Shown here piece by piece: positions 6,648-8,684 of a stretch of DNA of 64,000 bases. This stretch comes from Rhodospirillaceae bacterium. GTDB lineage: Bacteria > Pseudomonadota > Alphaproteobacteria > UBA8366 > Aestuariispiraceae. A program made the translations under genes and the position numbers. The stretch lies in NCBI GenBank assembly GCA_002709955.1, contig PAQY01000002.1, forward strand, positions 108,448-172,447, given 5' to 3'. Numbering within the stretch: position 1 is the first letter of the stretch; each line of letters begins with the position of its first letter. The notes beneath the pieces are model-generated. The model ran no database searches. It saw only the letters and a list, made by a program, of their open reading frames with translations, and was not told the origin of the DNA.

Positions 6648-6789
6648 TATACCCCCCATGATGCGTCCTGATCGTGCTTCTAGTTTGACCGCGCTTACAC
6701 CCGTTGGTCAAGTGACGGTAGCATGGCGAAGCCTGTCGCTTTTTCTGTAGTCGCATTTAAAATTTCAGGTAATCTGTTTGAACATTGAG

Positions 6790-6985
6790 CGGTTCCCATT
6801 AGGGGATCAAAAGGGAATTCGGTGCGGTGGAGATCTGGATCATGGTTGATCTGGATGCTGCCAAAGCCGAAGCTGCCCCCGCAACTGTAAGCGGCGAGCC
6901 GATCGCCCATTCATGCCACTGACACATTTTCGTCGGGAAGGCAGGGTGGTTCGGCATTGACCCGCAAGCCAGGAGACCTGCCGCT
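6790..6985 (+). promoter_or_regulatory. cobalamin (AdoCbl) riboswitch
   Basis: All conserved core elements of the B12 riboswitch are present in order: AGGGAATTCGGTG (about 6812-6824), GCTGCCCCCGCAACTGTAA (6872-6890), GCCACTG (6915-6921), CGGGAAGGC (6934-6942) and the B12-box tail AGCCAGGAGACCTGCC (6967-6982). Known members bind adenosyl- or methylcobalamin and repress downstream expression. The element ends about 50 nt before the ATG at 7036. A short helix, CCGGG (7007-7011) with CCCGG (7020-7024), ends exactly where the Shine-Dalgarno GGAGGAGG (7023-7030) begins, suggesting translational control. Confidence 0.93.
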
Positions 6986-7035
6986 CTTCACATTAAACCC
7001 AAACGACCGGGCGGGGTGCCCCGGAGGAGGTTACG

Positions 7036-7389
7036 ATGAGTGGATTGGCATATCCTGATTCTGCAACGCAAGACTCTTTTGCTTCGACGGTTCTGTCGAC
7101 AGACGTTCAACAAATAACAAAACTTGATCCCCAAAATTGCCTGGGTGGATTGTTTCATTGCGGCACCCCCCTGCCGGTTGGGGCGGCGGAAGATGCCGTG
7201 CTGTCCTGGTTGATGACATTGCCCGATGCAATGGATCCAGCGCGGGCGGCTGCAATCCTGGGACAAATGCCGCTTTTTGCACAGGCGGATCAGGGAGAAA
7301 CCGGTCGCCTTGCCACGCTGTTGCGGGAAATCGCCCAATATCCTGCAGAAAAACTGGCATCAGGGCGCCGCCGCCGCCCCCGAAACTAA
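7036..7389 (+). CDS. 117-aa protein of unknown function, downstream of the cobalamin riboswitch
   Basis: I do not recognise this protein. It has a strong Shine-Dalgarno (GGAGGAGG, 6 nt before the ATG) placed exactly after the B12 riboswitch, which supports it as the regulated gene. The sequence has a polar N-terminus, a centre with CLGGLFHCGTPLPVG (35-49; Cys35 and Cys42, His41), a helical stretch (VLSWLMTLPDAMDPARAAAIL, about 55-75), a second helix ending REIAQYPAEKL, and a basic tail RRRRPRN (111-117). No signal peptide or membrane helix is evident. It is not CbtA or CbtB, CobW or TonB-like. Regulation by B12 status is inferred from the riboswitch. Confidence 0.7.
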   Translation: MSGLAYPDSATQDSFASTVLSTDVQQITKLDPQNCLGGLFHCGTPLPVGAAEDAVLSWLMTLPDAMDPARAAAILGQMPLFAQADQGETGRLATLLREIAQYPAEKLASGRRRRPRN

Positions 7390-7429
7390 AGGCTATTGAC
7401 GATCCGGCCCAGGCTTTGTATCCCCTAGC

Positions 7430-7535
7430 CACTCCGTAGGGGAGTAGCCGCCCTTTTTATAGGGGCCTGTGTCAACATGCTTGGCAATTGCCATGGCACA
7501 GGCGGCCGGTCACGGTTTGGCAAGACCTATGGCGA
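7430..7535 (+). promoter_or_regulatory. yybP-ykoY (manganese-sensing) riboswitch
   Basis: The diagnostic motif TAGGGGAGTAGCCGCC (7437-7452) is followed by the second conserved arm GTCAACATGCTTGG (7471-7484) and closes with GGCAAGACCTATGG (7519-7532). The basal helix pairs CCGTAGG (7434-7440) with CCTATGG (7526-7532) through one G-U pair. Known yybP-ykoY elements bind Mn2+ and switch on exporters and UPF0016 genes. That matches the gene that follows. Confidence 0.9.
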
Positions 7536-7552
7536 TTCTGATCGGGTTCGGA

Positions 7553-7592
7553 GGGACCGGCCGTTCGGAGTCGTCATCTTGTCGCCGGTCCC
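7553..7592 (+). promoter_or_regulatory. expression-platform hairpin between Mn riboswitch and start codon
   Basis: The perfect 9-bp inverted repeat GGGACCGGC (7553-7561) / GCCGGTCCC (7584-7592) sits between the aptamer and the Shine-Dalgarno TTGGAGAG (about 7595-7602). The 3' arm abuts the ribosome binding site and is followed by CTTT. It could act as a weak terminator or mask translation initiation. Which of the two cannot be decided from sequence. Confidence 0.6.
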
Positions 7593-7606
7593 CTTTGGAG
7601 AGTTTC

Positions 7607-7885
7607 ATGCAGCCTTTTATTGCCATTTTTATCACTGTTTTCCTGGCGGAATTGGGGGACAAAACCCAGTTGGCGACGGTTCTGTTTGCCACGGATAAGG
7701 CGATGACGCCGATGGGTGTTTTCTGTGCCGCCGCTGCCGCCCTTATCGTTTCAACGGCCCTGGCCGTGTTTCTGGGTACAGTCGCCGAACGCACATTGAC
7801 CATGATCCCCTTGAAACTGATCGCGGGCTGCGGATTCGTAATCATGGGGCTGTGGAGTATCTATGATCACTTTCAGGGATCATAA
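7607..7885 (+). CDS. UPF0016/GDT1-family Mn2+ exporter, half-size (single-repeat) form
   Basis: A 92-aa membrane protein with one copy of the UPF0016 motif, ELGDKTQLATVL (15-26), near the end of the first helix. Further hydrophobic helices are at about 35-58 and 68-86. UPF0016 proteins (TMEM165/Gdt1, bacterial MneA/MntX) normally carry two inverted E-x-G-D-(K/R)-(T/S) repeats in about 190-210 aa and export Mn2+ or Ca2+. A single-repeat protein would have to dimerise. The start at 7607 follows GGAGAG and the Mn riboswitch; the longer open frame upstream is the riboswitch itself. No second half-gene is adjacent. Confidence 0.88.
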   Translation: MQPFIAIFITVFLAELGDKTQLATVLFATDKAMTPMGVFCAAAAALIVSTALAVFLGTVAERTLTMIPLKLIAGCGFVIMGLWSIYDHFQGS

Positions 7886-7889
7886 GGTT

Positions 7890-8684
7890 CTAGGCTGGTT
7901 TCCAGGTCAGGCACGTCTCTAACATGCGTTGCAAATGGGGGCGCACCGCGTTGGCCTTATCGTCCAGATAGGGCCAGGGCGCGCTTTCCTGCATATAGGT
8001 GATCTGGCTCAATTCCAACTGGATCGCATGAACATGATCTCGGGGAATGCCATAATTGCGCGTAATGTATCCGCCTTTGAACCGGCCATTCAGCACGGCC
8101 GTAAACCCTGTGGCGGCCTGTGCCTGTGCCAGCACGGCCTGGGCCAGATCTGGGGCGCAACTCTTGTCCATATTGGTGCCCAGATTAAAATCTGGCAGTC
8201 GACCGTCAAAGAAACGGGGAACCTGGGATGCAATCGAATGTGCATCCCACAATACCGCATGACCATGATCGCCTTTGATCCGGTCTAGTTCCTGTGCCAG
8301 GGCCGTGTGATAAGGCATCCAATAGCCATCAATCCGCCCCAAAACTTCCGCCATGTCAGGATCGATATCATCCTGATAAATCGCATCGCCTGAGAAAGTA
8401 TCAACCGGGACCAATCCTGTTGTCGCCTTTCCCGGATACAGATTTTCATCATCGGGGGGTCGATTCAGATCAATGACATATCGCGAATAGTCCGCGACAA
8501 GCACAGAGGCCCCCATGTCGACGGCAAAATCATACAGCCGATCCACATGCCAGTCCGTATCTGGCAGCAGCCTGGCAGCATCTGACAGGCGGTTTTGAAT
8601 TTCTTTGGGAACAGCAATCCCCGCATGTGGAATACTGATCAGAAGCGGCGCTGTGCCACGGTGAAGACGATAGTTTGACGACAT
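7890..8684 (-). CDS. hutG: N-formylglutamate deformylase (amidohydrolase)
   Basis: A 264-aa N-formylglutamate amidohydrolase of the HutG type (TIGR02017-like). It releases formate and glutamate in the last step of the five-step histidine degradation route. Family blocks seen: SIPHAG (17-22), DTDWHVDRLYD (42-52), DLNRPPDDENLYPG (72-85), the candidate metal-binding WDAHSI (146-151), and GGYITRNYG with the later QLELSQITYM. No other hut gene is in the window, so either the pathway genes lie elsewhere or the enzyme works on other N-formyl amino acids. It converges on the Mn exporter gene with only 4 nt between their stop codons. Confidence 0.9.
   Translation of the reverse strand: MSSNYRLHRGTAPLLISIPHAGIAVPKEIQNRLSDAARLLPDTDWHVDRLYDFAVDMGASVLVADYSRYVIDLNRPPDDENLYPGKATTGLVPVDTFSGDAIYQDDIDPDMAEVLGRIDGYWMPYHTALAQELDRIKGDHGHAVLWDAHSIASQVPRFFDGRLPDFNLGTNMDKSCAPDLAQAVLAQAQAATGFTAVLNGRFKGGYITRNYGIPRDHVHAIQLELSQITYMQESAPWPYLDDKANAVRPHLQRMLETCLTWKPA

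Follow-up and report, generated by a model that had tools for sequence, protein, structure and literature searches.

We report that a gene for a 117-amino-acid (aa) protein, which lies directly behind a Cobalamin (B12) riboswitch, is a strong candidate for membership of the B12 regulon across several alphaproteobacterial families, and that the small-protein family it represents appears to be undescribed; we place the probability of this reading at roughly 0.85. The gene was analysed in a window of 64,000 nucleotides, by which we mean the whole stretch of DNA under study. Exactly two Rfam matches above the gathering thresholds occur in this entire 64-kb window, namely a cobalamin aptamer (RF00174) that spans the complete model (positions 1-189 of 189) and a manganese riboswitch (RF00080). 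A preliminary description of the same DNA had placed a complete B12 riboswitch directly ahead of the small gene and a Mn riboswitch ahead of a UPF0016 gene. Both assignments are borne out by the Rfam covariance models, whose cut-offs the two RNA elements far exceed, and by the match of the second protein to the GDT1 family (Table 1). The aptamer loop is named L5 and the platform hairpin P13.

Table 1. Features of the riboswitch region, in positions of the window
Feature	Position	Strand	Support or detail
Cobalamin (B12) riboswitch aptamer, RF00174	6773-6999	+	124.1 bits against a cut-off of 31.5; E 1.1e-30
Part of aptamer loop L5, CCCCGC	6877-6882	+	Sequence; complement found in the expression platform
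Expression-platform hairpin	7007-7024	+	Stem 7007-7011 with 7020-7024; GCGGGG at 7011-7016
Shine-Dalgarno sequence GGAGGAGG of the small gene	7023-7030	+	Sequence
ORF of the 117-aa protein, unnamed family	7036-7389	+	117 codons, ATG start, behind the B12 riboswitch
Promoter-like pair, TTGACG (7396-7401), 17-base spacer, TATCCC (7419-7424)	7396-7424	+	Putative, from sequence
Manganese (yybP-ykoY) riboswitch, RF00080	7432-7591	+	67.5 bits against a cut-off of 45; full model
UPF0016/GDT1 protein, single-domain, 92 aa	7607-7885 (including stop)	+	PF01169, 67.3 bits against a cut-off of 27

The 117-aa open reading frame (ORF) is a selected gene. Comparison of G000, G002 and G004, the three closest genomes, gave a dN/dS of 0.08-0.12 over the entire gene. 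The ratio is 0.48-0.64 in the first 30 residues and about 0.05 in the core (residue 30 onward), a value that two of the pairs allowed us to compute. A further pair, G003 and G005, gave values of 0.08 for the whole gene, 0.06 for the core and 0.15 for the N-terminal part (16 codons). The core of the protein is thus under strong selection and its N-terminal part is looser, and the frame proposed from the window is conserved by purifying selection. Family members share an Asp-Pro near residue 31, a Leu-x-Trp-...-Leu-Pro segment, an Asp-Pro-Ala-x-Ala-Ala motif and a Leu-Leu helix, and most of them have an arginine-rich end. The invariant or nearly invariant columns hold Trp, Leu, Ala, Pro, Asp, Arg and the start Met; Cys and His are absent from these columns, and 11 of 25 riboswitch-led members are free of Cys altogether. 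The last 20 residues carry a net positive charge in all 42 members known when the charges were counted, with an acidic remainder in most; the f126 members found later lie outside this count, and in some of them (L110-L112) the basic tail is weak by eye.

None of the profile libraries searched (Pfam, NCBIfam and PHROGs) names the family of the 117-aa protein. For 25 members, Pfam and NCBIfam returned no match above a curated cut-off (best E 0.0021), and each of the five families listed matched one member only, below its cut-off. Such profile matches of single members at E 0.002-0.1, LcrG-type and others, were taken as chance. Nothing usable was obtained from PHROGs with four family members or from PDB sequences with two family profiles, and the family was found neither in plasmid records (tblastn with two members) nor in viral contigs. 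Two AlphaFold models are all-helix, with mean pLDDT values of 78.8 and 78.1. A Foldseek comparison of both models with the PDB gave no match at E ≤0.001; the matches listed all had E >1 and TM <0.4 and were disregarded. DUF1127 comprises small arginine-rich proteins, of which RNA-binding examples exist. The 117-aa family likewise is small, alphaproteobacterial and equipped with a basic, arginine-rich end, but it is longer and its body is mostly acidic. Identity with DUF1127 was rejected, as none of the 25 members scanned had a Pfam match to that family.

Homologues of the 117-aa protein do exist in relatives of the organism, and with all searches pooled the family gene was found in 86 different genomes. 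A search of relatives matched 10 of 98 genomes, the window's own included, and a class-wide profile search matched 20 of 386; a second draw, which overlapped with the first, yielded 23 of 385. Profile searches by family gave 3/17 genomes in f19, 15/17 in f41, 23/23 in f149 and 13/31 in f126. A phylum search returned 21 matches in 299 genomes, all of them in the window's class; the listing of this draw gives no count of genomes beyond that class. Upstream DNA was examined in 74 of the 86 genomes. The other 12 are G469, whose locus (L085) stops at a contig edge, and 11 genomes without a fetched locus (G495, G479, G480, G708, G664, G772, G712, G768, G710, G774 and G687).

We counted a riboswitch as paired with the gene when it lay upstream on the same strand, with at most about 200 bases between the end of the aptamer and the matched part of the gene. 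By this definition a cobalamin riboswitch precedes 45 of the 74 homologues examined and is absent from 29. The 45 loci come from five families, with 10 in f1 (the family of the window), 9 in f41, 13 in f149, 12 in f126 and 1 in f19. Following the order of the searches, the pairing is present in the window's own genome, in all 9 other relatives, in 10 of 16 further class-wide matches and in none of the 6 further matches of the second class draw. Among the further matches of the later searches, it occurs in 5 of 9 evaluable f41 loci, 10 of 17 fetched f149 loci, 10 of 11 f126 loci and none of 5 fetched f26 loci; all 10 f26 members examined are without the riboswitch. The position of the gene behind B12 riboswitches elsewhere makes a stronger case than the preliminary description could have made from the window itself.

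Twenty of the 29 riboswitch-free loci were rescanned at E values up to 1, and no cobalamin match emerged (a microRNA-family match at L070 was below its cut-off and was disregarded). As a control, cobalamin riboswitches were found elsewhere in 7 of 8 riboswitch-free homologue genomes tested. On a tree of 41 members, which omits G451 and predates the f149, f126 and phylum searches, the riboswitch label requires 4 changes, compared with a mean of 13.0 for shuffled labels, and none of 500 shuffles was as low. The label is therefore confined to a few clades. A homologue with the riboswitch (L032) and one without it (L040) lie behind the same methyltransferase gene (43% identical over 228 alignment columns), a pair that shows a gain or loss of the riboswitch at a retained locus. 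The 25 riboswitch genomes known when these elements were counted contain 101 cobalamin riboswitches in total, about one in four of which precedes a gene of the 117-aa family. As there are few cobalamin riboswitches in a genome of several million bases, the same riboswitch neighbour in five families would be hard to explain through chance.

The geometry of the pairing is conserved as well. In 37 of the 45 riboswitch loci the family frame begins 53-60 bases after the invariant aptamer sequence CCAGGAGACC; the 37 comprise sets of 19 and 18 loci, the second of which was scanned only from 45 bases onward. The others are L042 and L087-L089, which have a leader ORF, L114, which has a rough anchor, and L115, L117 and L118, for which the start was not worked out. 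At L042 (approximately 1338-1746) and L087-L089 (approximately 1350-1500 on the gene strand), the start controlled by the switch apparently opens a short ORF (25-29 codons). The family gene lies behind it in another frame and apparently begins at, or overlaps, the stop of the short ORF. A conserved block separates the aptamer from the start codon, and in the window it reads CCGGGCGGGGTGCCCCGGAGGAGG. It contains the platform hairpin, on whose loop side the GCGGGG is the exact complement of the L5 sequence CCCCGC, and the 3' side of this hairpin (7020-7024) overlaps the beginning of the Shine-Dalgarno sequence.

A hairpin complementary to L5 was found ahead of the start in all 43 riboswitch loci that could be anchored. 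We required at least 4 pairs and at least 4 loop bases complementary to L5, and found 4-6 bases complementary to the consensus L5, one consensus being applied to all loci; L5 was read individually in the first 25 loci only. L114 and L116, which are without an anchor, were left out, and the rows for L042, L012 and L013 from the first anchoring were not used, L042 being reread. Compared with letter shuffles of the same sequences, fewer than 5 of 100 did as well in 29 of the 43 loci, and 5 or more did so in 14 (53 in L080). The hairpin of the window was equalled by 2 of 100 letter shuffles. In isolation, the segment 6985-7060 has a best free fold that differs from the hairpin and folds no better than shuffles (z 0.99). 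The absence of the hairpin from the isolated fold may be expected if the aptamer is needed for its formation.

A kissing loop between the aptamer and a platform hairpin is the design of translational B12 riboswitches such as that of btuB, in which the ligand-bound form blocks the ribosome, and ligand binding lowers expression in the Cobalamin riboswitch class at large. The element in the window resembles the btuB type in its full-length aptamer and in the complementarity of its pre-start hairpin loop to L5. It differs in that it precedes an unnamed small protein and not a gene for a transporter, for B12 biosynthesis or for a B12-independent isozyme. By analogy, we infer that ligand binding shuts the 117-aa gene. 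When adenosylcobalamin is plentiful, it would be bound by the aptamer, and L5 would then kiss the loop of the hairpin ahead of the gene. This contact would hold the hairpin shut and block the Shine-Dalgarno sequence. When B12 is scarce, the 117-aa protein would be made, alongside the receptor and the cobalt transporter that are encoded behind the other two B12 riboswitches of the genome.

These other two riboswitches precede a gene for a BtuB-like TonB receptor and a cbtB-cbtA pair. The receptor sequence is partial and scored 171.5 bits with TIGR01779, under the full-length cut-off, and its gene is separated from the riboswitch by about 330 bases, in which there is another small ORF. No match to the B12-independent methionine synthase MetE (PF08267) was found in the window's genome, and 37 of the 39 genomes searched with this domain, a set that also takes in genomes lacking the gene or the switch, show none; B12 supply thus probably matters to the bacteria searched. 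Presence of MetE was considered as a separator of riboswitch and non-riboswitch genomes and was discarded, since one genome of each kind has it.

At 14 of the 45 loci with a riboswitch, a recognised B12 or cobalt gene stands behind the small gene on the same strand. These genes are cobW at 10 loci, all in f126, cbtB and cbtA at 3 loci in the f41 genera g310 and g313, and metE at the f19 locus. The DNA available downstream of the gene at the other 31 loci showed no cobW, cbtBA or metE. Among loci without a seen riboswitch, 1 of 30 has such a gene, a cobW at L113 in f126, a locus that was counted as riboswitch-free. Two CobW proteins were tested and scored well above the cut-off of TIGR02475, the other CobW proteins being assigned by 57-72% identity, and the CbtA, CbtB and MetE models scored above their cut-offs where tested. 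The arrangement in g310 and g313 recalls the CbtB/CbtA operon, which is also preceded by a B12 switch, with the small gene placed between switch and cbtBA; the family itself differs, as none of 25 members matched CbtB or CbtA in Pfam or NCBIfam.

Its place ahead of cobW at 10 and of cbtBA at 3 of the 45 loci would fit a small protein that carries cobalt or a corrinoid in partnership with CobW or CbtAB. We regard such a carrier as unlikely, however: a metal carrier is disfavoured because the family has no conserved Cys or His, many riboswitch-led members being Cys-free, and most of the riboswitch loci have no cobW, cbtBA or metE behind them. The ORF could also be a translated leader or coupling device for downstream genes, with an idle product. 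It is the first recognisable gene past the switch in the 45 loci, and the short ORFs at the switch-controlled starts of L042 and L087-L089, with the family gene in another frame, would be compatible with leader translation. The strong purifying selection on the core nevertheless argues for a working product, and copies without a known B12 gene behind them occur in f1, f149 and most of f41, which leaves the leader as the least probable of the explanations considered here, and very improbable in itself.

The neighbourhoods of the riboswitch-free homologues were inspected for a common theme, and none emerged; the neighbours, judged by eye, were a glnE-like gene, a methyltransferase and a DUF3047-like protein. 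In f26, the riboswitch-free homologues L041 and L067-L070 follow the glnE-like gene (by eye), a hint that the role of the family may be general or connected with nitrogen. In the f41 genus g55 (L009, L027-L029, L079 and L080), the B12-controlled gene is divergent from an Rfam serC leader (RF00517), such that two RNA leaders stand back to back.

The second half of the region is a familiar pair. According to PMC7380456, a UPF0016 member is present in 333 of the strains screened there, and in 328 of these 333 its gene is governed by yybP-ykoY; the paper also describes three-span UPF0016 members from prokaryotes for which homo- or heterodimers are predicted. The RNA and gene families in the window are the same, and the only notable departure from the known pair is that in three genomes it follows a gene under B12 control. 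For the UPF0016 ORF, the ATG at 7607 was judged the best start (the mechanical ORF list begins at a GTG at 7469). By its translation, the 92-aa protein has one ELGDKT motif, where the family expects one or two motifs of the form E-x-G-D-K/R-S/T. None of 200 shuffles folds as well as the segment 7425-7625 (z -4.28), and in the lowest-energy fold of the Mn element a 5' CUCC pairs with the GGAG of the ribosome-binding site. Manganese riboswitches as a class bind Mn2+ and raise expression; since the best fold here pairs the ribosome-binding site, the direction of switching is not readable from the anatomy. By eye, the CUCC of the Mn element (7432-7602) can alternatively pair with an internal GGGAG, a possible either-or switch.

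Among 14 genomes of the window's family, 7 contain RF00080. Three of these (G000, G002 and G004) carry it behind the small gene. The other four (G001, G006, G008 and G012) carry it at a different place, where by eye a UPF0016-type gene comes next. The Mn-led UPF0016 gene encodes two motifs in G001, G008 and G012, and its start resembles the short form in G006 (by eye). Likewise, at L072, L076 and L077 the Mn-controlled UPF0016 protein has two motifs by eye, compared with the 92-aa single-motif protein of the window's clade.

The preliminary description had further proposed that transcripts dependent on B12 may run into the Mn element and thereby couple Mn export to B12 status, a link that we now consider distinctly improbable. 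Read-through would be helped by the short gap of 42 bases (7390-7431) between the stop of the 117-aa ORF and the Mn element, in which a scan found no terminator-like site, and the arrangement is retained in G000, G002 and G004. Yet the serial order is confined to these 3 of the 14 family genomes, and in four others the Mn riboswitch stands elsewhere with a UPF0016-type gene of its own. The gap moreover contains a promoter-like pair, TTGACG-N17/18-TAT, whose hexamer ends are kept in the window, G004 and G002 as the spacer varies (18 bases in G002). The pair ends 7 bases ahead of the Mn element, and the sequence suggests that it may be the element's own promoter; a strict sigma-70 consensus scan of 6650-7950, the same one that was read for terminators, reported no promoter, the gap pair included. 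Finally, the B12 switch looks translational, in which case the transcript level need not track B12 strongly. We conclude that the Mn riboswitch forms an ordinary unit of its own with the UPF0016 gene, and that the serial order is a lineage-specific neighbourhood, the Mn unit having presumably come to adjoin the B12 unit in one lineage.

Returning to the 117-aa protein as a B12-regulon candidate, its own activity can be framed only tentatively. Its basic tail and small size lead us to suppose that it might be a helical adaptor or regulator that would help the cell to save or re-route B12 or cobalt in shortage, its tail possibly binding nucleic acid. It is similarly conceivable, and a guess of the same order, that the protein is a dedicated effector of B12 starvation, neither transporter, biosynthetic enzyme nor replacement isozyme, which would act on RNA, the ribosome or an enzyme. 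Such an effector might have originated, on the same tentative reading, when a small-protein family of the alphaproteobacteria, acidic in its body and basic in its tail, came under the control of B12 riboswitches. As 29 of 74 homologues, including all 10 from f26, are without the riboswitch, the basic function of the family need not concern B12. The riboswitch-free homologues suggest that its B12 role is younger or narrower than the family itself.

The mode of regulation outlined here would be new only in its target, and as a proposal from sequence it is well supported by comparison. In PMC3766115, roles in the cobalamin regulon are sorted into B12 biosynthesis, transport of B12 or its precursors, cobalt transport and isozymes, with others grouped as miscellaneous. 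B12 elements ahead of genes without known relatives are mentioned in the available part of PMC2211319, where the text leaves these genes unnamed, and our search of open-licence PubMed Central found no publication naming such a B12-riboswitch-led gene. The gene is tractable, as it is small and most of its riboswitch loci have no known B12 gene behind it. A conserved, domain-less small protein behind B12 switches in five families suggests that the response to B12 shortage in these bacteria may include a further activity.
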